A stretch of DNA of 64,000 nucleotides from Micromonospora marina. Lineage in GTDB: Bacteria > Actinomycetota > Actinomycetes > Mycobacteriales > Micromonosporaceae. Below are positions 1-32,612 of this stretch, piece by piece; within the stretch, counting starts at the first letter, position 1, and the number at the start of each line of letters is the position of its first letter. Position numbers and translations under genes: made by a program. The stretch covers positions 1 to 64,000 of the forward strand of contig NZ_FMCV01000021.1 in assembly GCF_900091565.1 (NCBI RefSeq), written 5' to 3'. The notes under the pieces are model-generated. The model was given only the letters and a program-made list of their open reading frames with translations, was not told where the DNA came from and did no database searches.

Positions 1-1007
1 ACATCAGCCACACCCAACCGCGCGTTCGCCAACGCCTGCCGGATCACCCGCTGCTGCGACGGACCATTCGGCGCCGTCAAACCATTCGACGCACCGTCCT
101 GGTTGACGGCCGTGCCCCGCACGACCGCGAGAACCCGACGCCCGTCACGCCACGCATCCGACAACCGCTGCACCACCAGCACCCCGACGCCCTCGGCGAG
201 CGCCGTGCCGTCCGCCGCGTCGGCGAACGCCCGGCACCGGGCCACCGGGGACAGGTTGCCCTGCCTGGTGAAGTCGACGAACACCGCGGGGGTGGGCATG
301 ACCGTCACGCCGCCGGCCAGCGCGAGGTCGCACTCCCCCGACCGCAGCGCCTGCACCGCCAGGTGCAACGCCACAAGCGACGACGAACACGCCGTGTCCA
401 CCGTCACGGCCGGACCCTCGAACCCGAACGAGTACGCCACCCGACCCGAGGCGATGCTGCCCGCGTTGCCGAGACCGAGGTAGTCCTCCACGCCCGCCGG
501 CGGGGTCTCCGGCGGGTGTGCGTACCCGCTGTGGGTCATGCCGGCGAAGACCCCGACCCGGGCGCCCTTCAGACTTGTGGGGTCGATCCCCGCCGACTCG
601 ACGGCCTCCCACGAGGTATGCAGCAGCAGCCGCTGCTGCGGGTCCATGGCGAGGGCCTCGCGCGGCGAGACCTCGAACAGCCGGGCGTCGAACTCGGCGG
701 CGTCGGCCACGAATCCGCCCTCACGGACCGAGGAGGTGCCCGGCCGGGACCGCTCCGGGTCGTAGAGCGCGTCGAGATCCCAGCCGCGGTCGGTGGGGAA
801 GGAGGCGATCGCGTCACCGCCGGACACGACGAGATCCCACAGTTCCTCGGCGGTGCGTACCCCGCCGGGGAACCGGCAGCCGATGCCGACGATCGCGATG
901 GGCTGCTGCGCGTCGGCCTCGACGTCCCGGAGCCGTTGCCGGGTCCGCCGCAGGTCGGCGGTGACTCTCTTCAGGTACTCCCGGAGCTTCTCTTCGGTGT
1001 CCATCAT
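1..1007 (-). CDS. Type I modular PKS subunit, N-terminal part (runs off left edge)
   Basis: This is the beginning of a second modular polyketide synthase protein. It starts at tandem ATG codons (1007 or 1004) and reads leftward off the window. The first ~35 residues form a charged helix ([20 protein letters not shown]) typical of an N-terminal docking domain, followed by a ketosynthase beginning [14 protein letters not shown]. The active-site cysteine lies in [13 protein letters not shown], and the reading frame stays open to the edge just after the [18 protein letters not shown] region. The docking helix fits reception of the chain from the ACP and C-terminal docking tail of the upstream PKS (4674-19571). 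The subunit has its own divergent promoter region shared with the thioesterase at 1293. Domains beyond the KS cannot be seen. Confidence 0.95.
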
Positions 1008-3040: not shown

Positions 3041-4603
3041 TCAGCCGCGCCGGATCTGCCGGCGCAGATCCTCGACGAGCGCCGGCACGACGGCCGGGTC
3101 GGCGGCGGTGCCGAAGACGTAGAAGTCGGGACGGACGAGCACCGCCACCGCGTCGTACCGCTTGAGGTGAGGCAGGTACACGTCGTCGAGGTCGAAGGCG
3201 GTCGGCGCGGCGCCGGATCCGGGCGCGGGCGCGCCGGCGGGAACGATCCGGACGACCCGCGTGCCGAGCGCGTCCAGGAAGGCCCGGGCGTCGGCGTCGA
3301 GCAGGTCGCCGGGGTCCTCGGCGCAGAGCAGGACGAAGCCGGTGCCGACGACCTCGTCGAAGAGCCCGGCGCGGCCGTCGACCTCGACTCGGCCCTGCGG
3401 CATCGGGGCGCCGGCGGCCTCGCAGCCGCTGTGCAGGATCCCGCCGGACAGGGGCTCCAGCAGGGACCGGGTGCGCGGGCGGGCGGTACGCCGGCGCAGC
3501 TCGGCGAGCATCGCGGCGTCGCGGCCGGCCGCGGCGGCGCGGTCGGTCTCGCAGATCACCGCGCCCGAGTCCATGGACATCCGGATGGCGTGCTGCACGT
3601 GCGCGCAGCGCTCCTCCTGGTAGGTGTCCAGCAGGGCCTCGTCGGCGAGGCCGCGGTGCACCAGGTCGAGCTTCCAGGCGAGGTTGAGGGCATCGCGGAA
3701 GCCCGAACTCATCCCCTGCCCCATGAACGGCGGCATCACGTGCGCCGCGTCGCCGGCGAGCAGGATCCGCCCGGAACGCCAGCGCCCGGCCGAACATGCC
3801 TGGGTGGTGTAGACGCCGTACCGCTCCAGGGTGGCGTTGTCGGGGGTGATGTCGAAGAGGCCGAGCAGCCGCCACACGCTGGCGGCGCTCTCGAACTCCT
3901 CGCGGCTCTCCCCCGGCACCCGCATGAACTCCCACCGCCGGTGCCCCGGGCCGGCCGACACGGCCGTGCGGGGCCGCGCCGGGTCGCAGACCTGCAGGTT
4001 GTTCGGCTTGAACTCGCGGGCCTCGTGCGGGATCACGTCGCAGACCAGCCAGTCGTACGTGAAGCCGAGGTCGGTGACGCCGCCGCCCAGGTGCTCCCGC
4101 ACGAAGCTGTTGGCCCCGTCGCAGCCGATAACCCAGCGGGCCGCGCGGACCTCCTCGCCGTCCGGGCCGGCGATGGTCACCTCGACCCGGTCGTCGTGCT
4201 CGACCAGGCCCGTCACCTGGTACGGGCGCAGCACCGTGACACCCGGCAGCTCCGCGCCCCGCTCGGCGAGCAGCGCCTCCAGTCCCGGCTGGTAGAACGA
4301 GACCGAGTCGGGCCAGCCCATCGGGCCGTCGCCGGTGACCCTGACATGCAGCAGGGTACGGCCGAAGCCGTTCTTGAAGGTGTACTCGCCGGACGACTCC
4401 ACCACCGGGCCGAGGCGGTCGGCGACACCGGCGGCGGCCAGGACCCGACTCGCCTCCCCGTCGTACGACACCGCGCGGGGGAAATTGTACGGGGTGGCCC
4501 ACCGCTCGACCGCCGTGACGGTGAGCCCTCGCTGCGCCAGCAGGATCGTGAGCATCTCACCGACGGGGCCGTAGCCCACGATCAGGACGTCGGTCGTCAG
4601 CAT
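3041..4603 (-). CDS. Class A FAD-dependent aromatic monooxygenase (Rif-Orf19-like)
   Basis: A 520-residue PheA/TfdB/MhpA-type flavoprotein hydroxylase. The FAD motif GYGPVG lies at residues ~10-15, the DG motif in GCDGANSFVR (~158), and the GD motif in ILLAGDAAHVMPPFMGQG (~285). The C-terminal ~120 residues form the thioredoxin-like tail of this family. In rifamycin clusters the homologous Orf19 is proposed to hydroxylate the AHBA-derived ring during chain assembly. Here the gene lies 70 bp after the PKS that carries the AHBA loading domain, so ring oxidation of the AHBA unit or the macrolactam is the likely role. Related enzymes also inactivate rifamycins, so the precise reaction stays open. 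Confidence 0.92.
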   Translation of the reverse strand: MLTTDVLIVGYGPVGEMLTILLAQRGLTVTAVERWATPYNFPRAVSYDGEASRVLAAAGVADRLGPVVESSGEYTFKNGFGRTLLHVRVTGDGPMGWPDSVSFYQPGLEALLAERGAELPGVTVLRPYQVTGLVEHDDRVEVTIAGPDGEEVRAARWVIGCDGANSFVREHLGGGVTDLGFTYDWLVCDVIPHEAREFKPNNLQVCDPARPRTAVSAGPGHRRWEFMRVPGESREEFESAASVWRLLGLFDITPDNATLERYGVYTTQACSAGRWRSGRILLAGDAAHVMPPFMGQGMSSGFRDALNLAWKLDLVHRGLADEALLDTYQEERCAHVQHAIRMSMDSGAVICETDRAAAAGRDAAMLAELRRRTARPRTRSLLEPLSGGILHSGCEAAGAPMPQGRVEVDGRAGLFDEVVGTGFVLLCAEDPGDLLDADARAFLDALGTRVVRIVPAGAPAPGSGAAPTAFDLDDVYLPHLKRYDAVAVLVRPDFYVFGTAADPAVVPALVEDLRRQIRRG

Positions 4604-4673: not shown

Positions 4674-19571
<14,898 letters not shown>

Positions 19572-19796: not shown

Positions 19797-20630
19797 GTGC
19801 CGTCGTTGGAACGCTGCTGGTTGTTCGCCCGTTCGGCCGTACCGGCCGGCGGCTGCCCGGGCACGCGGCTGACCGAGCTGGTCGGCACCGTCCTGACCGG
19901 GCTGGTCGCCGCCGCCCGCCGGGCCGATCCCGGCATGCACTGGTTCTTCGACCCGGAGGGCTCCCCCGCCGGGCGGCTGAGCCTCGGCTTCCATGCCACC
20001 CCCGCCGCGCTCGACGCGGTACGGGCGGGGTTGCTCGCGTACGACCCGGGGACGTCCCTGGCCGGGGACCGGTGCGTCGTGCGCGACCCCGCCCGGGGCG
20101 GCCCGCTCGCGTTCGCGGGCAGCGAACTGGCCCTCACCCTGCTCGGCGGCGACGTGCCCTGGCTGGCCGGCGGCGAACTGCCGCTGGCCGTGGCGCACCT
20201 GCGGCACCTGACCGGGCTGATGCCGGCGGCCGACCGCCTGGCGTTCCTGTTCCTGCACTGGCAGGAACGCAGCCAGCGGCTCACCGGCGCGCAGCGGCGG
20301 GAGCTGGCCGCGCAGGCCGACGCCGGGGCGGAGAAGATCGTCCTGTCGGCCGGTGACCTACCGCTGGGCGGGGACGTGGCAGTGGCGTGGCAGCGCTACC
20401 TGGACCGGGTGACCGACGTGGTGGGTCACCACCACCCGACGGCGCCTCCCGGGTTCCTGCTGGCGCACCACGCGCAGCTCACCCACGACCGGTGGGGCAT
20501 CCGGCCGGAGGTCGACTCGCTGGCCGCGCTGGCGCTGCGCCTGTCGATGGTGCGGGCCGACCCGGCCCCGACCGCGCCGGCCCACGTTCCGCAGAGGAGG
20601 CAGCAACCACATGCACGCGCCGGTACCTGA
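19797..20630 (+). CDS. SpaB_C / thiopeptide-type biosynthesis domain protein, stand-alone
   Basis: A 277-residue protein resembling the C-terminal SpaB_C (elimination or thiopeptide-type) domain of lantibiotic dehydratases. By eye the family pattern is visible in MHWFFDPEGSPAGRLSLGFH (usual form: WFF, a proline-rich turn, then LRLRF) and in the terminal LLAHHAQLTHDRWGIRPEVD helix (usual form: LLHMHxNRLxG followed by E). Relatives remove glutamyl groups from Ser/Thr or, in thiopeptides, catalyse a [4+2] ring closure. No lanthipeptide precursor or N-terminal LanB partner is seen here. GTG at 19797 is followed by PSLERCW; its ribosome binding site is weak. The 3' end overlaps the next gene by 20 bp, so it is translationally linked to aminoDHQ synthase. 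Family assignment by eye is moderate; its role here is unknown. Confidence 0.6.
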   Translation: MPSLERCWLFARSAVPAGGCPGTRLTELVGTVLTGLVAAARRADPGMHWFFDPEGSPAGRLSLGFHATPAALDAVRAGLLAYDPGTSLAGDRCVVRDPARGGPLAFAGSELALTLLGGDVPWLAGGELPLAVAHLRHLTGLMPAADRLAFLFLHWQERSQRLTGAQRRELAAQADAGAEKIVLSAGDLPLGGDVAVAWQRYLDRVTDVVGHHHPTAPPGFLLAHHAQLTHDRWGIRPEVDSLAALALRLSMVRADPAPTAPAHVPQRRQQPHARAGT

Positions 20631-21648
20631 CCGTCCCGCCGGCGAGCCGGCCCGCGTCGAGGTGGCACTCGGAGAACGGTCGTACCCGGTGCTGATCGGT
20701 CCCGGCGTGCGCCACCGGCTCCCGGCGGAGGTGGCGCGGATCGGCGCCCAGCGGGTCGTGGTGGTCTCGGCCCGGCCACCGGAGTGGACGCCCGACCCGG
20801 GCGTGCCGCACCGGGTGGTGCCGGCCCGCGACGGCGAGCACGACAAGAACCTGACCACCGTGGAACAGCTCTGCCGGGCGTTCGCCGAGTTCGGGTTGAC
20901 CCGGACCGACGCCGTGGTCTCCTGCGGCGGCGGCACCACCACGGACGTGGTCGGGCTGGCCGCCGGCCTCTACCACCGGGGTGTACCGGTGATCCATCTG
21001 CCGACCTCGCTGCTGGCCCAGGTGGACGCCAGCGTCGGCGGGAAGACCGCCGTCAACCTGCCGGAGGGCAAGAACCTCGTGGGCGTGTACTGGCAACCCC
21101 GGGCGGTGCTCTGCGACACCGAGCACCTGAGGACGCTGCCGCAGCGGGAGTGGCGCAACGGGTACGGGGAGATCGCCCGCGCGCACTTCATCGGCGCCGG
21201 TGATCTGTATGACCGGCCGGTGGCGGAACAGATCGCCGCATCGGTGGCGTTGAAGGCCCGGGTGGTGGCCGCGGACGAGCGGGACTCCGGCCTGCGGCAC
21301 ATCCTCAACTACGGTCACACGCTCGGGCACGCGTTGGAGCGGGCCACCGACTTCGGCCTGCGCCACGGTGAGGCCGTGGGAGTCGGCACGGTCTTCGCGG
21401 GCCGCCTGGCCGGCGTCCTCGGCCGGATACCGGCCGACCGGGTGGCCGAGCACCACGACGTGGTGGCGGGCTACGGGCTCGACACCACGCTGCCCGGCGG
21501 CGTCGACCACGACGAGCTGATCAGGCTGATGCGCCGGGACAAGAAGGCAACCTCGGGCCTGTCCTTCGTCCTGGACGGACCGGGCGGAGTCGAACTGGTC
21601 ACCCGCGTCCCCGAGGTCGCTGTGCGTACCGCACTTTCCGGCATGTGA
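20611..21648 (+). CDS. rifG: 3-amino-3-dehydroquinate synthase-like (aminoDHQ synthase)
   Basis: A 345-residue dehydroquinate synthase family protein that in AHBA pathways cyclises aminoDAHP to aminodehydroquinate. The NAD site is visible in VVSCGGGTTTDVVGLAA. PTSLLAQVDASVGGKTAVN is the family core, and metal ligands are expected in NGYGEIARAHF, NYGHTLGHALE and RHGEAVGVG. The NGYGEIAR form, rather than the SGMAEVIK of primary-metabolism enzymes, points to the AHBA subfamily. A GGAGGCAG sequence precedes ATG 20611, which lies inside the preceding gene. The rifH-like aminoDAHP synthase is not in this window. Confidence 0.9.
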   Translation: MHAPVPDRPAGEPARVEVALGERSYPVLIGPGVRHRLPAEVARIGAQRVVVVSARPPEWTPDPGVPHRVVPARDGEHDKNLTTVEQLCRAFAEFGLTRTDAVVSCGGGTTTDVVGLAAGLYHRGVPVIHLPTSLLAQVDASVGGKTAVNLPEGKNLVGVYWQPRAVLCDTEHLRTLPQREWRNGYGEIARAHFIGAGDLYDRPVAEQIAASVALKARVVAADERDSGLRHILNYGHTLGHALERATDFGLRHGEAVGVGTVFAGRLAGVLGRIPADRVAEHHDVVAGYGLDTTLPGGVDHDELIRLMRRDKKATSGLSFVLDGPGGVELVTRVPEVAVRTALSGM

Positions 21649-21751: not shown

Positions 21752-22942
21752 TCAGGTGCCCAGGGCCCGCTGGATCTGCGCCACCAGCACGCCGCAGGCG
21801 TACCGGTCCGCGGCTCCGACCATGCCGACGATGGTCGCCGGCAGCGGGCCGTTGTCCGTCTCTGCCGGGTCGTGGTGCATGAACACGACGAACTGCCCCC
21901 GGTCGATGAACGGCGCGAGGATCGGCTCGGCGTCGACGCCGGGAGCCAGTGAGAAGAACGTGGTCATGGCGCACGGATGCCGGCCCAGCAGCGAGCTGCG
22001 GTGCAGCAGCGAGGTGGTGGCCCCGCTGACCCGGAAGTTCGGGTCGATGACCCGCAAAGCGCCGTCGCGGCCGATCCCGGCGTCGAAGGAGCAGTAGCCC
22101 CGGTACCCGAGCTCACTGGCCTTTCGGACCCCTACGGTCAGCGCTTCGACCAGCTCCTCCGGGGGCTGGTCGTCGTCCATCACACAGCCGACCCACGTCG
22201 AGGTGGGCTGCGGCAGGTGTACCGACGCTCCGAAGTAGTGCACCGTTCCCCCGTCGGTCACGCCGAACTGGAGACCCCAGATCGTCTCGAAGGGCACCTC
22301 CTCCTCGACGATCCACTGCTCGCTCACCTGTTCCAACTGGTTGAACAGGGAACGGTTCCGCCGGTCCCGCAACCGACGGGTGAAGATCGCAATTCCACTG
22401 AACACCTCGACCCCGGCCGGTTTGATGACCGCCGGCCGGCGGTCCCGCGCCACGATCCGGCGCACCTCGGCGGGGGTGGCGACCTGCCGGCGGGGCAGGT
22501 ACTCCGGCGCGACCAGAGTCTCCAGCACGGTCTTGTTGTTGAGGCGGGCGAGCAGATCCGCGGGCACCCGGGCGCGAGCGGCCCGCAGCAGCGGGTCATG
22601 CGGGGGAAACTGGAACTCCAGCGTCTCGCCCCGCTCGACGGCTTCCCGCGCGTACCGCACCGCCTGCGCGCCGGAGCGGAACTCCCGCAGGTCGCTGGGC
22701 GTCTTCAGACCACTCCGGCTGAGCAGACGCAGTGACTTGTCCGCGCTGGAGCCGGTGCTGCAGATGACCGCCGACTGGTGCGGAAGGGTCAGGTGCAGAC
22801 CCGTGATCATGTCCAGGCCGTTGTAGAGAGCGGCGCCCGCGCCGGCGAGATAGGGGCTGTCGGCGGTGGCCGACGGGTCGGGCGGTCGGGCGAGGACCAC
22901 CCCGTCGTGTGCGAACACCTGTACCTGGATGGGAACCTGCAT
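21752..22942 (-). CDS. ATP-grasp ligase of unknown substrate
   Basis: A 396-residue ATP-grasp fold enzyme. The nucleotide-binding lysine is in RRPAVIKPAGVEVFSG. A WIVEEEVPFETIWGLQ strand and the Mg-binding end RVIDPNFRVSGATTSLLHRS (Asp, Asn, Arg) are typical, as is the glycine-rich loop in VGCVMDDD. Such enzymes activate a carboxylate as acyl phosphate and join it to an amine or thiol. ATG at 22942 is chosen for the AGGAG 6 nt upstream. It is not a standard ansamycin gene and is divergent from the NRPS and convergent with rifG. It might build an amide on the ansamycin or prepare a tailoring acid; this is inference. Confidence 0.8.
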   Translation of the reverse strand: MQVPIQVQVFAHDGVVLARPPDPSATADSPYLAGAGAALYNGLDMITGLHLTLPHQSAVICSTGSSADKSLRLLSRSGLKTPSDLREFRSGAQAVRYAREAVERGETLEFQFPPHDPLLRAARARVPADLLARLNNKTVLETLVAPEYLPRRQVATPAEVRRIVARDRRPAVIKPAGVEVFSGIAIFTRRLRDRRNRSLFNQLEQVSEQWIVEEEVPFETIWGLQFGVTDGGTVHYFGASVHLPQPTSTWVGCVMDDDQPPEELVEALTVGVRKASELGYRGYCSFDAGIGRDGALRVIDPNFRVSGATTSLLHRSSLLGRHPCAMTTFFSLAPGVDAEPILAPFIDRGQFVVFMHHDPAETDNGPLPATIVGMVGAADRYACGVLVAQIQRALGT

Positions 22943-23762
22943 CTGATCTCCTGACATGCTGGCCCGGTGCGGGCCTCGGGGTAGCGCTGAAACCGGTGCG
23001 CCACGGCCACGAACAGCGGAGAACGTGGCCTCAGGCGTGGGCTCCCGGTCCTGGTGCGGCCGCTCGGCCGCGAGAGCCGGGCGTGCCGTGTGCACCGACC
23101 GGACGGTCGTGAGCTGGACCGGCCGGGAAGCCGGCCGGCGTGTGGCCAGCTTCACCCGGCGAGGTGCACACCGCCGGTCAGCGGCTGATTTTCCAGCCAC
23201 CGACTTGGAGTCATGATCGAAAGATCATAGTCACTACTCATTGCCCCGGGATGGGCCAGACAGGCGAACGCGGACGACCCTTTCGCCGCCGGGGCCGCCG
23301 ATACTCCTAGCCGTTGCCATCGACTCGGGCTGACCGAAAAGCTGTTCGTCAGTAGGGTTGGAGTCGCCGGACAGCGCTGTCGCAGCCGCGCTGCCGACGG
23401 CCCGGCTCGCACGGCCACGCCCCTGCCAGGCCCACATTGCCGGCCCGGCCTCGACACGGCCGGTGGCGGGCGGGCACCGCCGCCACGTCCCCGGCCTGCC
23501 CGGGGCGGGATCTCCGGCTGGCGCGCTAGGGGTCGACATGCCGATCTCTAGGGGTGTACGTCACGGCGCAGCGCTTCGTATGGTCGGGCCCCGTCGGCTC
23601 GTCGTTGCCACCCTCAGCGCACCGGATCGGGTGGCCCGCGAGCGGCGCCGCCCGTCGACGCGCCTCGCGTCACCCCCGCCGTCCGGCGTACCGCATCCCG
23701 GCTGACCGATCGTCGCGGCCCTGAGCCTTTCGGTCGTTCCCTTTCGATCGGAGGTTGAGCTG
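22943..23762. promoter_or_regulatory. Long divergent control region of the ATP-grasp and NRPS genes
   Basis: No convincing gene is seen in these 820 bp. Two perfect CTAGGGGT copies lie at 23526-23533 and 23548-23555, exactly 22 bp (two helical turns) apart, pointing toward the NRPS. A short AT-rich palindrome, ATGATC-GAAA-GATCAT, lies at 23213-23228 and could be an operator. A GGAGG 8 nt before the TTG at 23763 sets the NRPS start. Confidence 0.5.
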
Positions 23763-26700
23763 TTGTCTGTCGGGTTCGATGGCGCCCAGGCCGCGGACGG
23801 CGCGGTTGCTCTGGAACTCGTGGGTGACCTGCGGAGGCCGGCGGTGTGGCCCGCGCGGGCGGCCTCGGTGCACCGGGTACTGCCCGCCTGGCCGTCGCGC
23901 GTGACACCGGCCGGACACGTCGTGGTGGCGGGGCTCGTGGCGGTCCTGGCCCGCTGGACCGGCCAGGACGAGGTGGTGCTCGGGCTGGCCCCGGCCCACG
24001 GGCCGGTGGCGCGGGTGGACGTCTCGGGCGACCCGGGATTCGGGGAGTTGGCGACGCGGGTGGGACTGGCGTGGACGGCGCCGGTGGCGGGTCCGGACCG
24101 ATCGGATCCGGTGGCGGTGGAGCTCACCGACGGCCCGGTGGCGGAGACGGGACCGGCCGTGGTGGACGTCGACATGGTGGTGCGCGTGGCTGCGGACGGA
24201 TCAGTGCTGCGGGTGGACTACGCGGTGGAGGAATTCTCCACGCAGTTCGTACGGGGACTCGTGGATCAGGTCGTGGTGCTCGTCTCCGCCGGGACGGCGG
24301 CGCCGCAGGTCGCCCTGTCGAGGTTGCCGTTGCTGGACGCCGCGCAACGGGAGCGGTTGCTGGCGTGGGGGCGCGGCCCGGTGCGGGAGATCCCGGGTGA
24401 GCCGATCCACGAGCTTGTGCTGGGCTGGGCGCGGCGGTCCCCGGAGGCGGTGGCGGGTGTCGCGGGCGACGAGGTGCTGACCTACGGGGAGCTGGATCGC
24501 CGGTCCGGACTGCTGGCGGCGTACCTGCGGTCGGTGGGTGTCCGTGCCGGTGACGTGGTGTCCGTGGCGTTGGAGCGCGGGTTGTGGTCGCTGGTGGCGG
24601 CGATGGGTGTGCTGCGGGCGGGTGCCGCGTACACGCCGATGGACGTGTCGTGGCCCGCGGAGCGGATGCGGGTGCTGCTGGCCGACCACGGCGCGCGGGT
24701 GGTGTTGACGGTCGGTGCGGTAGCGCCCCGGATTCCCGCCGGGGACGGGGTCACGGTGGTGGCGCTGGACGACGGCTGGCCCGCGGTACCGGACGGTGCG
24801 GCGGCGGATCTGCCTGTGGTGCCGGTGGACGCCCCGGCGTTCGTCATCTACACGTCGGGTTCGACAGGCACGCCGAAAGGCGTGGTGCTGTCACACGAGA
24901 GGCTGGCGAACTTCCTGGCGTGGATGACCGGCGAGTGCGCCATCGGCCCCGGCAGCCGGATGCTGCACTCGGCGGCACCGGTCTTCGACGCCGCGTTCGG
25001 GGAGATCTTCGCCGCGCTCACCGGTGGGGGCCGCGTCGTCGTGTGCCCGCGCGACGATCTGCTCGACGCGCGCCGGCTCACCGACCTCGTCAACACCCAG
25101 GGCGTCACGCACACGTTCGGACCGGCCACCAACATCGCCCCGCTCGACCCGGCCGCCTGTCCCGGCCTCCGCTGCGTCATCTTCGGCGGCGAGGCCGTCC
25201 CGCCGCGGCTGGCCCAGCGGTGGCTGACGGCGGGCACGCGGGTGGTCAACGCGTACGGGCCGGCCGAGATCGCCGTGGCGTGCACCTGGTTCGACGCGTC
25301 GGCCGGGTGGGGTGGCGCGTACGTGCCGATCGGCTGGCCGATGCCGAACCGGCAGGTCCGCGTCGTCGACGCGGACCTCGACCTCATGCCGGCCGGGGTT
25401 CCCGGGGAGATCCTGATCGCCGGCTTCGGCGTCGCCGACGGTTACCTCAACCGCCCCGAACTGACCGCCCAGCGGTTCGTCACCGACCCGTACGGCGGCG
25501 GGCTCGCCTACCGCAGCGGCGACCTGGGGAGGTGGAACAGCGCCGGTGCACTGGAGATCCTCGGCCGGATGGACCACCAGGTGAAGGTCAACGGCATCCG
25601 CATCGAGCTGGGTGAGATCGAGAGCATCCTCGCCCAGCACCCGGAGGTGGAGACCGCCGTCGTCGTCCGCCGCGAGGACCGGGGCGTGGCCCGGCTCGTC
25701 GCGTACGTCACCGGGCGCGACGGCCGCACCCCGGGCATTGGCGACCTGCGCGACCACGCCACGGCCCACCTGCCCGGCTACATGGTCCCCGCCGCCGTCG
25801 TCGTCCTCGACCGCTTCCCCCTCGGCGGCACCGGCAAGATCGACCGGAGTGCCCTTCCCGCACCCGACGCCCAGCGCCCCGATCTCGGCGTGCCGTACGT
25901 GGCGCCGGCCACCGAGGGCGAACGCCTCGTCGTGGAGGTGTTCGCGAGCGTGCTCGGCATCGAGCGGGTCGGGGCCCGCGACGGGTTCTTCCACCTCGGC
26001 GGCACGTCGTTGCAGTCCGCCGCCGTCGCCGTCGCCCTCGACGAGGCCGCCGACGTGGTGGTGCCCGTCTCGCAGATCCACCGCACGCCCACCCCGCACG
26101 AGCTGGCCCGCTGGCTCGCCACCGCCCCCCGCCGCGCGGACACCGGCTCGACCGTGACACAGGCCCGGCAGCGCCCGGGACCGGTCCCGCTCGCGCAGCA
26201 GGTGGCGAAGTGCCTGATGTCGCCGCTGGAGGTCGTCGTCCCGGTCACCTGGTGGATCGAGGGTGAGCTGGACCTACGAGCCCTCATGGCCGCCCTCGGC
26301 GACATACACCACCGCCACCAGGCCCTACACGCCCGCTACCGACGCACCGACCCACCAACCGCAATCATCCCCCCCAACCCCGGCATGCCACAGCTCCGGC
26401 TACTCACCGACGCCGCCACCGAACACGACGCCCTCGACCAACTCGCCGAGGCAGTACAACAACCCCTCGACTACACCCAGGGCCGCAACTGGCGCGCCGC
26501 CCTGATCCGAAACAAAACCACCAACCGAATCCTGCTCGGCATCGGCATCCACCACATCGCCTTCGACGGCTGGTCACACGGACTACTCGTACGAGACCTC
26601 AGCCACGCCTACACCGCACGACACGCCGGCCACACCTCCACCTGGAAACACCCCGCACCCACACTCCACCAAACCCACGACGAACACACCCGCCTCCGCA

Positions 26701-27446
26701 ACGCCGCCGACCTGCAAACCCAACGAACCTACTGGCGCGAACAACTACGCGACCTACCCCGCCAAGGCAAGGGCCGGCCGCAGGAGAACCCGGAACAGAC
26801 CCCGGCCTGGGGCCCCAAGACCGGGCACATCGTCACCGTCCCGCCCGAGCTGGTGCGGCGCTGGGACCGGGCCGCCGGCGAACACCGCTTCAGCAGGTCC
26901 AGCTACTTCGCCGCCGCCTACGCCTCGGCGCTACGCGCCATCCACGGGCAGGACGACATCGCCCTGCTGATGATCGTCGCCCAGCGCGGCAGCCGCGTCC
27001 TCGACGCCGCCTTCACGAGCAGGATCAGCAGCAACTGTCTCCGGGTCCGGTTCGGTGGCCCGGAGAAGGACCTGATGTGCGCCCTCCAGCAGACGGCGGA
27101 CGAGATGATGGCCGCCCAGGACGTCTCCTTCCTGGAGATGATCACCGACGACCCGGTCCTCGACCTGCCCCGCACGGTGATCGACAGCCTGCCCTCGTTC
27201 GCCTACCAGGACAACCTCGTCCTCCCGCTGGACCTGCCCGGCTGCCGGACCGAGGAGGTCGTCGAGCCGTACGCCCGGGAGTGGTCCGGTGCCTGCGTCG
27301 CCGAGGTGCTGCCCGGCGAAGGGAGTGTCCTCCTGCGGGTCACCATCCGTACCGACCTGGTCCCGGCCCACGTCGCCGAGATCCTGGCCACCGGCATGCT
27401 GCGCTTCCTGGAAGCCGGCCCCGAGGTGGTCAGCGGGACACGCTGA
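23763..27446 (+). CDS. NRPS with partial C, A, T and terminal C domains
   Basis: A 1227-residue nonribosomal peptide synthetase. Residues 1-~190 resemble only the C-terminal half of a condensation domain and lack HHxxxDG. An adenylation domain follows (~205-700; YTSGSTGTPKGV at ~362, lysine in LGGTGKIDRS), then a carrier (Ser ~747 in GGTSLQS) and a complete condensation domain (~800-1225; HHIAFDG at ~929). There is no thioesterase or reductase domain. Aligned by eye to GrsA, the specificity residues read D-A-G-T-I-G-A-V-A-K, closest in style to aromatic amino acid codes, with low certainty. Ending in a C domain suggests transfer of an aminoacyl unit onto a hydroxyl or amine of a partner, as proposed for ansatrienin-type side chains. 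The TTG start is set by GGAGG 8 nt upstream. The 3' end overlaps the convergent phosphatase gene by 17 bp. Confidence 0.93.
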   Translation: MSVGFDGAQAADGAVALELVGDLRRPAVWPARAASVHRVLPAWPSRVTPAGHVVVAGLVAVLARWTGQDEVVLGLAPAHGPVARVDVSGDPGFGELATRVGLAWTAPVAGPDRSDPVAVELTDGPVAETGPAVVDVDMVVRVAADGSVLRVDYAVEEFSTQFVRGLVDQVVVLVSAGTAAPQVALSRLPLLDAAQRERLLAWGRGPVREIPGEPIHELVLGWARRSPEAVAGVAGDEVLTYGELDRRSGLLAAYLRSVGVRAGDVVSVALERGLWSLVAAMGVLRAGAAYTPMDVSWPAERMRVLLADHGARVVLTVGAVAPRIPAGDGVTVVALDDGWPAVPDGAAADLPVVPVDAPAFVIYTSGSTGTPKGVVLSHERLANFLAWMTGECAIGPGSRMLHSAAPVFDAAFGEIFAALTGGGRVVVCPRDDLLDARRLTDLVNTQGVTHTFGPATNIAPLDPAACPGLRCVIFGGEAVPPRLAQRWLTAGTRVVNAYGPAEIAVACTWFDASAGWGGAYVPIGWPMPNRQVRVVDADLDLMPAGVPGEILIAGFGVADGYLNRPELTAQRFVTDPYGGGLAYRSGDLGRWNSAGALEILGRMDHQVKVNGIRIELGEIESILAQHPEVETAVVVRREDRGVARLVAYVTGRDGRTPGIGDLRDHATAHLPGYMVPAAVVVLDRFPLGGTGKIDRSALPAPDAQRPDLGVPYVAPATEGERLVVEVFASVLGIERVGARDGFFHLGGTSLQSAAVAVALDEAADVVVPVSQIHRTPTPHELARWLATAPRRADTGSTVTQARQRPGPVPLAQQVAKCLMSPLEVVVPVTWWIEGELDLRALMAALGDIHHRHQALHARYRRTDPPTAIIPPNPGMPQLRLLTDAATEHDALDQLAEAVQQPLDYTQGRNWRAALIRNKTTNRILLGIGIHHIAFDGWSHGLLVRDLSHAYTARHAGHTSTWKHPAPTLHQTHDEHTRLRNAADLQTQRTYWREQLRDLPRQGKGRPQENPEQTPAWGPKTGHIVTVPPELVRRWDRAAGEHRFSRSSYFAAAYASALRAIHGQDDIALLMIVAQRGSRVLDAAFTSRISSNCLRVRFGGPEKDLMCALQQTADEMMAAQDVSFLEMITDDPVLDLPRTVIDSLPSFAYQDNLVLPLDLPGCRTEEVVEPYAREWSGACVAEVLPGEGSVLLRVTIRTDLVPAHVAEILATGMLRFLEAGPEVVSGTR

Positions 27447-28128
27447 CCACCGGGCAGTGCGCCAGCAACTCCGCCGGGGCGTGCACGACCAGGTCGGGGC
27501 CGGCGGCGAGCAGCGCCGCGATGTCCCCGCCGTGCCACGTCGTGGCGACGGCCGTCGCCCCGGCGTCCCGGCCGCTGAGCAGGTCGATCACCGCGTCGCC
27601 CACCATCATGGCCTCGTGCGGCGGCACGTCGAGGTTGCCCAGCGCCTGGAGCACGATGTCCGGGGCAGGCTTGGGACGGGCCACCTCGTCGGAGCCGATC
27701 ACCTGGCCGAAGAGGCCCAGCACGCCGAGTTGGTCGAGCAGGGACCGGGCCCGCGGGCCGGCCTTGCCGGTGGCGATCCCCATCCGGATGCCCCGCGAGT
27801 GCAGGGTCTCCAGGGTCTCCCGGACGCCGGGGAAGAGCGGCACGAGGTGGGCCATCCGGTAGCTCTCGCGGACGAACGGCTCCTCCATCTCCAGGGGCAG
27901 CCCCATCAGGCGCATGATGTCCGGGAAGTACCTGCCCATGTGCCGGTTGTACTCGTCGAACGGCGCCGGCCCGTCGCCCACCACCTCGGCGTACGCGATG
28001 CTGAACGCCTCCCGCATGACGGCCGAACTGTCGACGATGACGCCGTCGAGGTCGAACACGACCGCACGGATCGGCCCGCGCGCCGGCGACGGCGGGGTCA
28101 CCTCGGCTGTGGACGATGGACGGCTCAT
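27430..28128 (-). CDS. rifM: HAD-family phosphatase (RifM-like)
   Basis: A 232-residue haloacid dehalogenase superfamily phosphatase. Motif I is VVFDLDGVIVDS (~residue 25), motif II is in GIATGKAG, the conserved lysine is in ARPKPAPD, and motif III is MMVGDAVIDL. In AHBA pathways RifM-type enzymes are linked to dephosphorylation steps that feed the kanosamine/aminoDAHP branch and are needed for AHBA formation. It is the last gene of the minus-strand set with the rifL- and rifK-like genes, 37 bp after the oxidoreductase stop. Its stop overlaps the NRPS stop on the other strand. Confidence 0.88.
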   Translation of the reverse strand: MSRPSSTAEVTPPSPARGPIRAVVFDLDGVIVDSSAVMREAFSIAYAEVVGDGPAPFDEYNRHMGRYFPDIMRLMGLPLEMEEPFVRESYRMAHLVPLFPGVRETLETLHSRGIRMGIATGKAGPRARSLLDQLGVLGLFGQVIGSDEVARPKPAPDIVLQALGNLDVPPHEAMMVGDAVIDLLSGRDAGATAVATTWHGGDIAALLAAGPDLVVHAPAELLAHCPVVSVSR

Positions 28129-28165: not shown

Positions 28166-29296
28166 TCACCCGGCGCGATGGCCCACCAGTGCGTGCTGGT
28201 GCTCCGGCCGGGTGGGCCGGGCGCACTGGTAGATCCGTTCGATGATGTCGATGGTCCGGCGGGCCTCGACGACGGCCGCGCCCCGGGCGGCCGGGTCGGC
28301 TAGCAGCCCGGGCAGGGCGTCGAGCTGGTGGTCGTACTCTGCGCCGATCGGCTCCCCGGGCAGCGGCAGCCGCGCGGTCCGGCCGTCGCGGGTACGCGTC
28401 AGCACCGGCGTGGGCTCCCGGTTGGGACTGAAGCCGAACGTGCAGCGCAGCGTCGCCGATCCGGCGGCGCCGTGCACGGTGACGGTGGTGCGGTCCAGCG
28501 ACTCGTGCGAGGCCCAGCAGGCGTGCAGGGCGACCGAGGCGCCGGTGTCGGTGAGCAGGAACCCCCGGGCGGTGTCCTCGACGTCGCCGGGAGCGTGGCC
28601 TGCGGGGTCGGCCCCGCCGCGCCAGGCGGCGTGGGCAGCGCCGTCGTTGACGAAGTCGTCCGAGACGCTGCCGATCGCGTGGGTGACCCGGGCCGGGCCG
28701 AGCAGCGGCAGCACCGTGTCGAGCAGGTGCCAGCCGAGGTCCACCAGCGCACCCCCGCCGGACTGGTCGCGGCGGGTGAACCAGCCGCCCGCGTCGGGCA
28801 CCCCTCGGGCGCGGACCCAGGCCACATCGACGTGTCGGACCGGGCCCAGCCCGCCGGCCACGTCGGCCAGCGCCCGGATGTCGGCCCGGTAGCGGGCGGC
28901 GCTGCCGGCCAGCAGCACCGCGCCGCCGTCACGCTCCGCGTCGGCCAGGATGTCCGCCTCGGCGGAGGTCAGGCAGACCGGCTTCTCCAGGAACACCGGT
29001 ACGCCCCGGCGCAGCAGCCGGACGGCGACGACCGCGTGCAGGTGGTTCGGTACGGCGACCACCGCCAGGTCGACCGTTCCGGCGGGTAGGTCCTCGACGT
29101 CGGCGTACGCGGACGCGACGGCGTGGGTGTCGCGGGCCTGGTCGCGCGCCACGGGCTGCGGGTCGACCACGGCGACCACCTCGAAGCCGGGGTGTGCGGC
29201 GAGCCGGGGCAGCCAGATCTCCCGCCCGGCCCAGCCGAGGCCGACCACCGCGACCCGCACCGGCCGGTCGGGCGTCGCCGGGGGCCGGGCCGTCAT
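28166..29296 (-). CDS. rifL: GFO/IDH/MocA-type oxidoreductase (RifL-like)
   Basis: A 376-residue NAD(P)-dependent oxidoreductase. The Rossmann motif VAVVGLGWAGREIWLP lies near residue 15, the family signature VFLEKPVCL near 105, and a WHLLD segment near 180. RifL partners with the RifK transaminase in the proposed oxidation and amination of UDP-glucose toward kanosamine, the source of the AHBA nitrogen. ATG 29296 overlaps the AHBA synthase stop as ATGA, so the two are translationally coupled. The open frame extends further upstream, but only inside the neighbouring gene. Confidence 0.9.
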   Translation of the reverse strand: MTARPPATPDRPVRVAVVGLGWAGREIWLPRLAAHPGFEVVAVVDPQPVARDQARDTHAVASAYADVEDLPAGTVDLAVVAVPNHLHAVVAVRLLRRGVPVFLEKPVCLTSAEADILADAERDGGAVLLAGSAARYRADIRALADVAGGLGPVRHVDVAWVRARGVPDAGGWFTRRDQSGGGALVDLGWHLLDTVLPLLGPARVTHAIGSVSDDFVNDGAAHAAWRGGADPAGHAPGDVEDTARGFLLTDTGASVALHACWASHESLDRTTVTVHGAAGSATLRCTFGFSPNREPTPVLTRTRDGRTARLPLPGEPIGAEYDHQLDALPGLLADPAARGAAVVEARRTIDIIERIYQCARPTRPEHQHALVGHRAG

Positions 29297-30456
29297 CCGG
29301 CGAGGACGTCGGCGAGCACGGCGGCGATCTCGTGCATCTGCTGCTCCGTGCCGAGCAGCGTGCGGTGGTGCAGCCAGACGCAGTCGGAGTGGATCTGCTC
29401 GGTGTTGGGGCAGCGGGCCGCGATCGCCTCTGCCGACTCGTCGGGCGCGTCGGCCATCCAGAAGCCCTCGCACCGGTAGATCGCCCGGAACGCCACGAAC
29501 GCCGGGACGCCGCGGGCGATGAGCGCGTCCACCACGGCACGGCGGCGCTCGATGCCGATCCCGGGGATACGGAACATCGCCATGTAGTGCGGGTTGCGGT
29601 CGGTGCGGGGGTCGATCGTCTGCGGGACGACGCCCGGGATCTCGGCGAGCAGGCTCGACAGCAGCGGCCAACGCTGCTCGCGCAGCGCGATCTGCTCGTC
29701 GAGGCGGGTCAGCTGGGCGCGTAGCACGGCGGCGGCGAACTCGCCCATCCGGTAGTTCGAGCCGGTGGTGCCGTGCAGGTAGTCGCGGTCGGTGCGGGGC
29801 CGGCCGCAGCTGTGCACGAGGAACGCCCGCTCGCGCAGTTCCTCGTCGGGGAAGACGACCGCTCCGCCCTCGCCGGCGGTCATGAGCTTGCCGTTCTGGA
29901 AGCTGAAGGCTGCCACCGAGCCGAGCGCACCGGCCCGCCGGCCCCGCCACTGCGCGCCGTGGGCGTGTGCCGCGTCCTGCAGCAGCGCCACCCCGGCGTC
30001 GGCGGCGAGCTTGTCGAGCGCGTCCATGTCGGCGAACTGCCCGGCCATGTGCACCGGCATGATCACCTTGGTACGCGGGGTGATCGCGGCCTCGACGGCG
30101 GCGGGGTCGAGGCAGTAGGTGTCCAGGTCGACGTCGACCGGCACGGCGACCGCGCCGAGACGCTGGGCGGCCAGCGAGGACGAGATGAACGTGAAGGCCG
30201 GGACGATCACCTCCGTACCGGGGCCGACGCCGAGCACCTCCAGCGCGACCTCCAGGGCGTGGGTGCCGTTGGTGACGGCGAGCGCGTGGGGGCTGCCGTG
30301 GTAGTCACCGAACTCTCGCTCGAAGGAGTCGACCTCACTGCCGCCCATCCGCCACCACTGGCCCTGTTCGAGGGCGCGGATCAGTCCGGTTCGCTCCTCG
30401 TCGCCGTACCGCGGCCACTCGGGGAGCTCGGACACCGTCGAGGGCTGACCACTCAT
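29293..30456 (-). CDS. rifK: AHBA synthase (PLP-dependent, RifK-like)
   Basis: A 387-residue DegT/DnrJ/EryC1-fold enzyme, the length of known AHBA synthases. The PLP lysine lies in FSFQNGKLMTAGEGGAVV. LLQDAAHAHGAQWRG and the N-terminal WPRYGDEERTGLIRALEQGQ are characteristic. It aromatises 5-deoxy-5-amino-3-dehydroshikimate to AHBA and, with RifL, is also implicated in an early transamination. ATG 30456 is preferred over the in-frame ATG at 30504 because a GGGAAG sequence precedes it and the RifK-like sequence begins there. This gene is the strongest marker that the cluster makes an AHBA-derived product. Confidence 0.96.
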   Translation of the reverse strand: MSGQPSTVSELPEWPRYGDEERTGLIRALEQGQWWRMGGSEVDSFEREFGDYHGSPHALAVTNGTHALEVALEVLGVGPGTEVIVPAFTFISSSLAAQRLGAVAVPVDVDLDTYCLDPAAVEAAITPRTKVIMPVHMAGQFADMDALDKLAADAGVALLQDAAHAHGAQWRGRRAGALGSVAAFSFQNGKLMTAGEGGAVVFPDEELRERAFLVHSCGRPRTDRDYLHGTTGSNYRMGEFAAAVLRAQLTRLDEQIALREQRWPLLSSLLAEIPGVVPQTIDPRTDRNPHYMAMFRIPGIGIERRRAVVDALIARGVPAFVAFRAIYRCEGFWMADAPDESAEAIAARCPNTEQIHSDCVWLHHRTLLGTEQQMHEIAAVLADVLAG

Positions 30457-30788
30457 GACTTCCCACTTCCCAACTCGGGCAGACCAGGGGCTTGGACGGA
30501 CCATCGGGCGGGGCGACCCGAGACCGCCGGTGCGCGGTCCGGGCGCAGCGGAGAACCGGGTGGCCGCGCGGTACGTGACGCCTCCGTCTGGAGCCGGCGA
30601 CGTCGCTTCAGCAGGGAGGACGGTAACCGACGCGGATATGCGGTCACCGCCCCTAACAGCCCCTAGCCACCCCTTAGTCCGCCCGCACGTCGGGCACCGC
30701 CGGTTCGCCGGGAGCCGTCGGCGTAGTAAGACTGCGGTGACCAGTCATCAGGCTCTGCGGACAAGGGCCGTGCCCCACGAGGTGAAGC
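30457..30788. promoter_or_regulatory. Divergent promoter region with three TAGGGG-type repeats
   Basis: The 332-bp gap between AHBA synthase and aminoDHQ dehydratase contains no gene that can be supported. At 30650-30677 the minus strand carries three AGGGG cores (in TTAGGGGC, CTAGGGGC and CTAAGGGGT) with an exact 10-bp period. They point toward the AHBA synthase operon. Confidence 0.5.
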
Positions 30789-31220
30789 GTGTCGGACGTA
30801 CTGCTGCTGAACGGCCCGAACCTGGGCATTCTCGGCCGGCGGGAACCGGAGATCTACGGCACGGACACCCTGGACGACATCGAACGCGCCGTCGGCGAGG
30901 AGGTCGCCGCCCAGGGCTGGGGTGTGATCGCCGAGCAGCACGACTGCGAGGGGGCACTGATCCGTACGATCCAGAACAGCTACGGCACGGTGGGCGCGAT
31001 CGTCAACCCGGGCGCCCTGATGATCGCGGGTTGGAGCCTGCGCGACGCGCTGGCCGACTACCCCCGGCCCTTCGTCGAGGTGCATCTGTCCAACGTGTGG
31101 GCTCGGGAGAGCTTCCGGCACGACTCCGTGATCGCCCCGCTGGCCAGCGGGGTGATCGTCGGGCTCGGCGCGCTGGGCTACCGGCTGGCCGCGCGCGCCC
31201 TCACCTCGACCGTCCGATGA
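30789..31220 (+). CDS. rifJ: AminoDHQ dehydratase (type II dehydroquinase, RifJ-like)
   Basis: A 143-residue type II dehydroquinate dehydratase that converts aminoDHQ to aminodehydroshikimate. Visible are LLLNGPNLGILGRREPEIYG (catalytic Arg and Tyr region), NPGALMIAGWSLRDAL and EVHLSNVWARESFRH with the catalytic His. The NPGALMIAGW and NVWARE forms differ from the usual NPGAYTHTS and NVHARE of primary-metabolism enzymes and resemble AHBA-pathway members. The GTG start follows a GAGGTG. It heads a plus-strand unit with the DoxX-like, ROK kinase and FMN reductase genes. Confidence 0.93.
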   Translation: MSDVLLLNGPNLGILGRREPEIYGTDTLDDIERAVGEEVAAQGWGVIAEQHDCEGALIRTIQNSYGTVGAIVNPGALMIAGWSLRDALADYPRPFVEVHLSNVWARESFRHDSVIAPLASGVIVGLGALGYRLAARALTSTVR

Positions 31221-31673: not shown

Positions 31674-32612
31674 GTGTCCGGTCCGCAGCGCCACGGCGGC
31701 GTCCTCGGCATCGACGTCGGCGGCACCAAGGTCGCGTTGCACGCGGAGGCACCCGGGCGGCCGGCGTACGACCGGACCTTCCGCTGGCCCCTTGGTTCCG
31801 CCGACCCGGCCGCGGACCTGACGGTGCTGGCCGTCGAGGTGGACCGGCTGCGCGACCGGTGGGGACCGGTGGACGCGGTCGGGGTGGCCATGCCGGCGAC
31901 CACTGACACCGGGGGCACCGTCACCACCTGGCCTGGGCGCCCCGGCTGGGTGGGCCTCGACCTCACCGGAGCGCTGCGCCGCCTCTTTCCCGACGCGGCG
32001 ACCGCCGTCGCCGACGATGGTGATCTCGCCGCCCTGGCCGAGGCGCGCTGCGCCGGCGCGGACGACGTGGTCTACCTGGGCGTCGGCACCGGGATCGGCG
32101 GCGGCGTCGTGCTGGGCGGCCGGCCCGTGCCGGGCCGGTCCTCCGCCGAGATCGGCCACATGGTCGTCGCCCTCGACGGTGAGCGCTGCGACTGCGACCG
32201 GCATGGCTGCCTCCAGTCCGTCGCGTCCGGCCCCGCCACCCTGCGCCGCGCCGCCGCCCGCCGAGGCGGCGAGGTGGGCTTCGACGACCTACTGGCCGGA
32301 CTCGACGGGCGCGAGCCCTGGGCGGTGGCGGCGGTCGAGGAGAGCTGCCGGGCGCTGGCGGCGGCGGTGGTGAGCCTCGGCGAGATCCTCGATCCGGCGC
32401 TGGCCATCGTGGGCGGCGGATTCGCCGCCGGCCTGCCCGGCTTCGTGCCGCTCGTCGCGCAACGGGCACGCCGCGCCGGCCGGCCCGGGCGCCCTGCGCC
32501 ACCGGTGCGTCCCGCCGCCCTCGGCGGGCTGTCGTCCCTGCACGGCGCGGTGGAGCTGGCTCGTGACCTGACCGGCACGCCGGCTCCGGCGCGCCCCGTC
32601 CCCATCGCGTAG
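31674..32612 (+). CDS. rifN: ROK-family sugar kinase (kanosamine kinase, RifN-like)
   Basis: A 312-residue ROK kinase. The phosphate loop is GVLGIDVGGTKVAL (~residue 10), the ATP-binding core YLGVGTGIGGGVVLGG (~140), and the zinc-type motif is seen as CDCDRHGCLQS, where the usual glycine and glutamate are replaced by Asp and Gln. In rifamycin biosynthesis RifN phosphorylates kanosamine at C6, committing it to aminoDAHP. Position next to the rifJ-like gene supports the same job. The GTG start at 31674 follows a GAGG. Confidence 0.9.
   Translation: MSGPQRHGGVLGIDVGGTKVALHAEAPGRPAYDRTFRWPLGSADPAADLTVLAVEVDRLRDRWGPVDAVGVAMPATTDTGGTVTTWPGRPGWVGLDLTGALRRLFPDAATAVADDGDLAALAEARCAGADDVVYLGVGTGIGGGVVLGGRPVPGRSSAEIGHMVVALDGERCDCDRHGCLQSVASGPATLRRAAARRGGEVGFDDLLAGLDGREPWAVAAVEESCRALAAAVVSLGEILDPALAIVGGGFAAGLPGFVPLVAQRARRAGRPGRPAPPVRPAALGGLSSLHGAVELARDLTGTPAPARPVPIA

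Follow-up and report, generated by a model that had tools for sequence, protein, structure and literature searches.

The window analysed here, a stretch of 64,000 nucleotides that forms the start of a 122-kb contig (C20) in a genome of 6.06 Mb (G000), encodes a protein of 277 aa which we take, tentatively and as the best of the available explanations, to be a diverged stand-alone member of the SpaB_C superfamily that works outside RiPP chemistry, together with the adjoining aminoDHQ synthase, in the supply of AHBA (3-amino-5-hydroxybenzoate). According to this proposal, the two proteins would be translated together and would associate, with the SpaB_C-like partner using its conserved C-terminal helical half to stabilize, activate or feed the synthase within the complex. 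The AHBA so made would prime the PKS of a quinolidomicin-type giant macrolide cluster, a starter role to which the genes of the cluster point.

AHBA is the starter of drugs of the rifamycin, geldanamycin and maytansine types. Its pathway has been considered complete with about seven enzymes, and the SpaB_C fold has, to our knowledge, so far been described from peptide maturation. A conserved extra protein that accompanies the aminoDHQ synthase in many AHBA clusters, the quinolidomicin one among them, presents a testable gap in this pathway and, if the proposal is true, a non-RiPP use of the SpaB_C fold. It is also conceivable, if less likely than not, that a RiPP-dehydratase fold now serves the aminoshikimate pathway alone, as an enzyme or as a partner that the pathway requires; it would have an active or binding site of its own and act together with the aminoDHQ synthase on small sugar-derived intermediates, with neither peptide nor tRNA involved.

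Gene, frame and cluster type

The SpaB_C-like gene has a GTG start and a coding-type codon composition with GC-rich third positions (GC1/2/3 of 0.80/0.56/0.92). Orthologs at the same place in many genomes indicate that it is more than a chance ORF; named relatives include those of M. chalcea DSM 43026 (95%), sp. C31 (83%), M. rubida (70%) and M. okii (68%). Its 3' end runs 20 bp into the ORF of the aminoDHQ synthase, an overlap already given in the preliminary description and reproduced by the ORF coordinates (19797-20630 and 20611-21648). The surrounding genes are listed below, the Rif names being provisional labels:

3..1007, minus strand: start of the second PKS, QnmA2-like, truncated by the contig end
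1293..2054, plus strand: type II thioesterase (PF00975, E 3e-52)
3041..4603, minus strand: FAD-dependent aromatic hydroxylase (PF01494, E 7e-59)
4674..19571, minus strand: predicted first PKS, QnmA1-like (AHBA-loading and extension modules), divergent from the SpaB_C-like gene (from the ORF, synteny, and the G287 PKS layout against the qnm tables)
19797..20630, plus strand: SpaB_C-like gene of the AHBA-associated subfamily, 277 aa (ORF; orthologs match PF14028; hhalign 97.5% to LanB SpaB_C)
20611..21648, plus strand: aminoDHQ synthase, RifG-type (DHQ_synthase, E 6e-42; conserved downstream partner)
21752-23200, minus strand: 482 aa, ATP-grasp-like by eye, with no Pfam match at 1e-5
23763-27446: NRPS gene (A-PCP-C)
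27430..28128, minus strand: HAD phosphatase, RifM-like (PF00702; conserved neighbour)
28166..29278 (start approximate), minus strand: GFO/IDH/MocA oxidoreductase, RifL-like (PF01408)
29293..30504, minus strand: AHBA synthase, RifK-like (PF01041, E 2e-118)
30789..31220, plus strand: type II dehydroquinase, RifJ-like (PF01220, E 1e-45)
31701..32612 (start approximate), plus strand: ROK-family kinase, RifN-like (PF00480, E 1e-33)

The NRPS gene separates the aminoDHQ synthase from the other AHBA genes; two of these genes stand in tandem in the relative G287, and okii-type clusters show none at this place. The 482-aa gene adjoins the synthase in chalcea-type clusters only.

Of the PKS genes, only the first and the beginning of the second are in the window. 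The gene of G287 is 96% identical to that of the window, and the PKS genes of this relative span ~180 kb, with 1,1,4,4,6,2,3,1,3,2,1,2,1 KS motifs per gene (31 in sum). The tables of PMC8698034 list 2,1,4,4 modules for the qnm (quinolidomicin) genes of Micromonospora chalcea AK-AN57 and 6,2,3,2,3,2,1,2,1 for the rest of the ortholog in TP-A0316; the PKS order is the same in G287, and 11 of the 13 genes agree, the other two being counted one low with a KS motif pattern that is incomplete. By this agreement, the window carries the beginning of a giant macrolide cluster of the quinolidomicin type. The same paper names M. okii TP-A0468 (L004), in which we find the SpaB_C-like gene, as a carrier of a qnm ortholog, and reports such an ortholog in 34 of 74 Micromonospora strains.

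The AHBA part of the "AHBA/ansamycin cluster" of the preliminary description hence stands, whereas the ansamycin part does not: the cluster is of the quinolidomicin type, and a search for a RifF-type amide synthase (PF00797) returned no match in the window's genome, which is 99.85% complete. The genome also has a single type II DAHP synthase, unlinked to the cluster, although its set of AHBA genes looks complete in other respects.

Relationship to SpaB_C domains

Homology to the SpaB_C superfamily is distant but real, and is well supported on account of profile matches of orthologs, profile-profile alignment and structural matches; the exact fold is less so. The window protein alone has no match in Pfam or NCBIfam, and PDB sequence searches with it, with an alignment of 22 homologs (near-copy L006 excluded) or with one of 20 diverse members found nothing credible. 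As a control, a profile of 23 LanB-type domains, chosen as a subset of the PF14028 matches found, does retrieve NisB, MibB and MadB from the PDB. The 20-member alignment draws on 20 of the 31 loci described below and includes the short L023 (from G290), whose N-terminal columns are consequently gaps.

PF14028 (Lant_dehydr_C) is matched at E<=5 by 14 of the 22 aligned homologs, with a best value of 2e-7. The curated cut-off of 24.4 bits is exceeded by L004 (31.8) and by two members further removed, L135 (46.3) and L141 (50.1); L003, L005, L009, L014, L017, L021 and L140, scanned singly, fall below it, and scans of L012, L020, L022, L023, L134, L136, L137 and L139 gave no match to this model. 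L004 is the M. okii ortholog, 67-68% identical to the window protein, and its match spans residues 8-237. Against the profile of Micromonosporaceae LanB domains, the window protein itself scores 13.0 bits (E 0.086). Further, hhalign aligned the 20 diverse members with the 23 Micromonosporaceae SpaB_C domains at 97.5% over 236 collinear columns, a value obtained without an unrelated-profile control, and the narrower alignment with the LanB SpaB_C domains at 95.8%. Additionally, one member aligns in tblastn at 27.5% with a staphylococcal SpaB_C protein, presumably micrococcin TclL, that stands alone in its thiopeptide cluster.

The AlphaFold2 model of the trimmed ortholog L004 is of low confidence (pLDDT 51, pTM 0.51), and that of the untrimmed window protein is poor (pLDDT 43). 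With the former, Foldseek placed TbtD first (probability 0.91, E 0.19), with none at E<=0.001, and VIA-align filled ranks 1-11 entirely with entries of TbtD, PbtD, TsrL, MadB, NisB and MibB (Z 11.3-7.2), the next rank, at Z 7.0, being an antiporter without relation to them. The stand-alone SpaB_C-like protein of the preliminary description is thus upheld as a distant resemblance by the ortholog matches to PF14028 and by hhalign. The HMM search that it proposed favours SpaB_C, through the orthologs, and not the NCBIfam pyridine-synthase model NF045556, which has no match in the 22 members and four further ones; the proposed structural comparison agrees in its eleven best VIA-align matches, all of them LanB or thiopeptide-cyclase entries, and falls short in the quality of the model and the Foldseek E value.

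Distribution and association with the aminoDHQ synthase

A search of 300 Micromonosporaceae genomes matched 22, of which three were excluded after reading as chance frames (L024, L025, L026), leaving 19 loci, i.e., 16 of the quinolidomicin type and the divergent G291, G100 and G290. Profile searches of 397 genomes of the order and 394 of the class, two samples that overlap and in which the six best candidates were scored per genome, add seven genomes, six from another family of the order and one with the label 'same class'; a match in G853 (E 7e-4) is not counted among them. All 15 profile matches at E<1e-20 in these samples adjoin an aminoDHQ synthase or an AHBA synthase. In the stretch read, an AHBA synthase lies near the gene in six of the seven extra genomes, and the seventh, G374, has an aminoDHQ synthase and a loading PKS. 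A plasmid tblastn search recovered a homolog in Streptomyces sp. NBC_00335 (NZ_CP108007), directly 5' of a '3-dehydroquinate synthase family protein' and near genes for an arylamine N-acetyltransferase, a class II DAHP synthase and PKSs. The domain itself is already known, and RefSeq names this one member a 'lantibiotic dehydratase C-terminal domain-containing protein'.

In 29 of 31 loci, spread over three or more bacterial families, the SpaB_C-like gene lies directly 5' of the aminoDHQ synthase and on the same strand: the 16 quinolidomicin-type loci, four named ones (some possibly of the same species), G291, G100, six of the seven outside the family, and the Streptomyces plasmid. The recurrence of the gene next to rifG/rifK homologues in other genomes, for which the preliminary description had suggested looking, is hence observed in several families. 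The exceptions are G290, where the gene is 6.8 kb from the synthase, and G451, where the 20 kb read contain no aminoDHQ synthase. Of the 28 loci measured, 18 have a candidate start codon of the synthase no more than 22 bases upstream of the point where the SpaB_C stop codon ends. In M. rubida (L005 10001-12013), the SpaB_C-like protein and the aminoDHQ synthase form one frame of 670 aa with a Gly/Pro/Ala-rich linker, in a single draft genome in which a sequencing error is possible.

The gene is by no means universal among AHBA loci. Of the 300 Micromonosporaceae genomes, 29 encode AHBA synthase, at 33 loci altogether; the SpaB_C-like gene accompanies 16 of 16 quinolidomicin-type AHBA synthases (>=82% identity; in two drafts on another contig) and is present at 3 of the 17 loci of other types. 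The profile search of the 14 other loci found no such gene in the stretch read, and five of these (L106, L107, L108, L110, L116) show no aminoDHQ synthase in that stretch either. In trees of aminoDHQ synthase and AHBA synthase, the presence of the gene is clustered and patchy, with gains or losses. A single history shared with the aminoDHQ synthase was considered and rejected, since the trees give 4 and 5 label changes, of which at least two are forced by supported branches.

The clusters that carry the gene differ in type, some specifying a giant macrolide without an amide synthase and others combining a short PKS with one: in at least three loci (G586, G291, NZ_CP108007) an amide synthase is in the same, ansamycin-type cluster. 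A role shared by all would, therefore, most likely concern the AHBA step. As AHBA is common to all carriers and the synthase adjoins the gene, a partner role at or near the aminoDHQ synthase is favoured. The strongest point against this reading is that 14 AHBA loci of the same family do without the gene, and it follows that aminoDHQ synthase does not need the SpaB_C-like protein in general. The G290 and G451 arrangements also count against it, and position alone cannot tell a partner of the synthase from an independent enzyme.

A tie between the gene and a missing RifH was considered as well. Only one type II DAHP synthase, with no second of the RifH type, is found genome-wide in 12 of the 26 gene-carrying genomes that were tested (G000, G123, G221, G187, G082, G233, G264, G045, G269, G541, G374, G451), compared with 1 of 10 AHBA genomes lacking it, or 2 of 10 if a partial second match in G146 is discounted. 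This candidate was rejected, as nine of the 12 genomes are of the quinolidomicin type and several carriers do have RifH, which lies near the gene or in the cluster in G291, G586, G732, G290 and the Streptomyces plasmid. By a rough hand count with near-identical lineages merged, roughly one lineage in two has RifH in the cluster, whether or not it carries the gene, and this near-equal share indicates that loss of RifH does not explain the gene.

Residue conservation, competing explanations and known systems

All 23 chosen LanB-type domains have the LRxR arginines, the PE, the His and the later Arg. Among the members of the AHBA-associated subfamily, the second LRxR Arg is found in none of 17 (three of the 20 are gapped, and the most divergent members are aligned with less certainty there) and the first in six of 17, with a Ser in the window protein. 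The His of the elimination domains, five residues before a conserved Arg, is retained in 1 of 20, with a Gln in the window protein. Tyr293 of PbtD, located from alignments and titles of the wild-type and variant proteins, occupies this same place, and a Tyr is found there in none of the 20. The usual catalytic residues are thus mostly lost, and the protein has probably taken on a new role outside peptide antibiotics.

A different set of residues, H134, R147, W155, Q156, R167, W198, Y201 and R248, is kept in 19-20 of the 20 diverse members and sits in the C-terminal half of the protein. Thirteen positions are invariant among the 22 members and five in the wider set of 20. The two members L137 (9683-10261) and L139 (9669-10244), from genomes G485 and G451, consist of only the C-terminal helical half (192 aa) and retain the WQ (WR in L139) and Arg positions. 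In eight of eight chosen ortholog comparisons, the C-terminal half has the lower dN/dS of the two halves. Over six chosen orthologs, dN/dS is 0.39-0.62 for the SpaB_C-like gene, as opposed to 0.16-0.23 for the adjoining synthase, and between the window and M. okii the SpaB_C-like protein is 67% identical and the synthase 88%. These values suggest a gene that is constrained, yet fast-evolving. The frame is open across the conserved core in the loci read, and the search rows flagged for stops (L011, L013, L021, L128) have them at the C-terminal end.

The weak selection (dN/dS of about 0.4-0.6 against about 0.2) is a further point against the partner reading, and it would suit a weakly constrained accessory, e.g., a regulator, a protective AHBA-binding protein or a relic kept by its operon position, as would the fast divergence and the patchy presence in the two synthase trees. 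The open core frame and the invariant positions argue to the contrary, and a relic would hardly last in several bacterial families, leaving such an accessory unlikely. An independent catalytic role on AHBA-stage compounds ranks next after the partner role and is a minority possibility: the protein would be an enzyme in its own right, with H134, R147, W155, Q156, R167 and R248 forming a new active site for an aminoshikimate intermediate or AHBA. These polar residues are kept as those of a functional site would be, and the clusters vary in the AHBA genes they hold, with a RifH-type enzyme absent genome-wide in 12 of 26. However, the canonical AHBA enzymes are regarded as sufficient, 14 AHBA loci do not have the gene, RifH loss does not account for its presence, and two members dispense with the N-terminal half.

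Elimination or [4+2] cycloaddition on a polyketide or AHBA-polyketide, the chemistry envisaged in the preliminary description, has become improbable, since most of the residues that either reaction uses are absent (His 1/20, Tyr 0/20, second LRxR Arg 0/17). TbtD and PbtD, which are stand-alone pyridine synthases of the [4+2] type, are indeed the best matches of the L004 model (Z 11.3 to 10.0), but that model has a pLDDT of only 51, the NCBIfam pyridine-synthase model is unmatched, and the PKSs are too unlike across the clusters for one shared polyketide step. A separate RiPP pathway that merely adjoins the polyketide genes is very improbable. G290 has a YcaO gene (L048 8066-10171) directly 5' of its divergent homolog, a few kb from the aminoDHQ synthase and PKS genes, which could be read in favour of such a pathway; on the other hand, the conserved neighbour in 29 of 31 loci is the aminoDHQ synthase, and the RiPP search, whose scope was the window's contig, returned no LanB N-terminal gene. 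Six LanB queries found no such partner either in the window, as the preliminary description had stated, or in the other 58 kb of the contig, where, by its account, a RiPP precursor and LanB gene would speak for another pathway; the best tblastn match on the contig (E 0.024) was taken as noise, and as a control the first query retrieves ten LanB loci elsewhere, each with an E value of 5e-43 or lower. PF14028 matches elsewhere in the window's genome number two, both on contig C26.

The partner reading may also be placed against known systems and the literature. PMC8698034, which in the portion consulted treats the qnm PKS genes, does not mention the SpaB_C-like gene there; the sections consulted of a pentaketide ansamycin paper (PMC13000494) mention no 'lantibiotic', 'hypothetical' or 'unknown function' gene; and the open-licence literature searched, including the quinolidomicin papers PMC8698034 and PMC9967187, yielded no link of the gene or domain to AHBA. 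With the PF14028 elimination domains of class I lanthipeptide dehydratases (NisB, MibB, MadB), the protein shares a full-length collinear profile match, and the matches of the L004 model suggest the same fold, but the catalytic Arg and His positions are largely replaced, no N-terminal partner is encoded on the contig, and the setting is a polyketide/AHBA cluster. The thiopeptide [4+2] pyridine synthases TbtD, PbtD and TsrL are SpaB_C-fold proteins that likewise stand alone and are the top structural matches of the L004 model, and differ in the Tyr at the PbtD Tyr293 place, absent here in all 20 members, and in their NCBIfam model. A PEARL (peptide aminoacyl-tRNA ligase) has a LanB-like N-terminal aminoacylation part, unlike the present 277-aa stand-alone protein, with no LanB-like aminoacylation gene on its contig. 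As in the rifamycin-type AHBA set, RifG-, K-, L-, M-, N- and J-like genes surround the window's SpaB_C-like gene, and the window's genome differs from that set in being without the RifH-type and RifF-type genes and in carrying the SpaB_C-like gene as an extra one.
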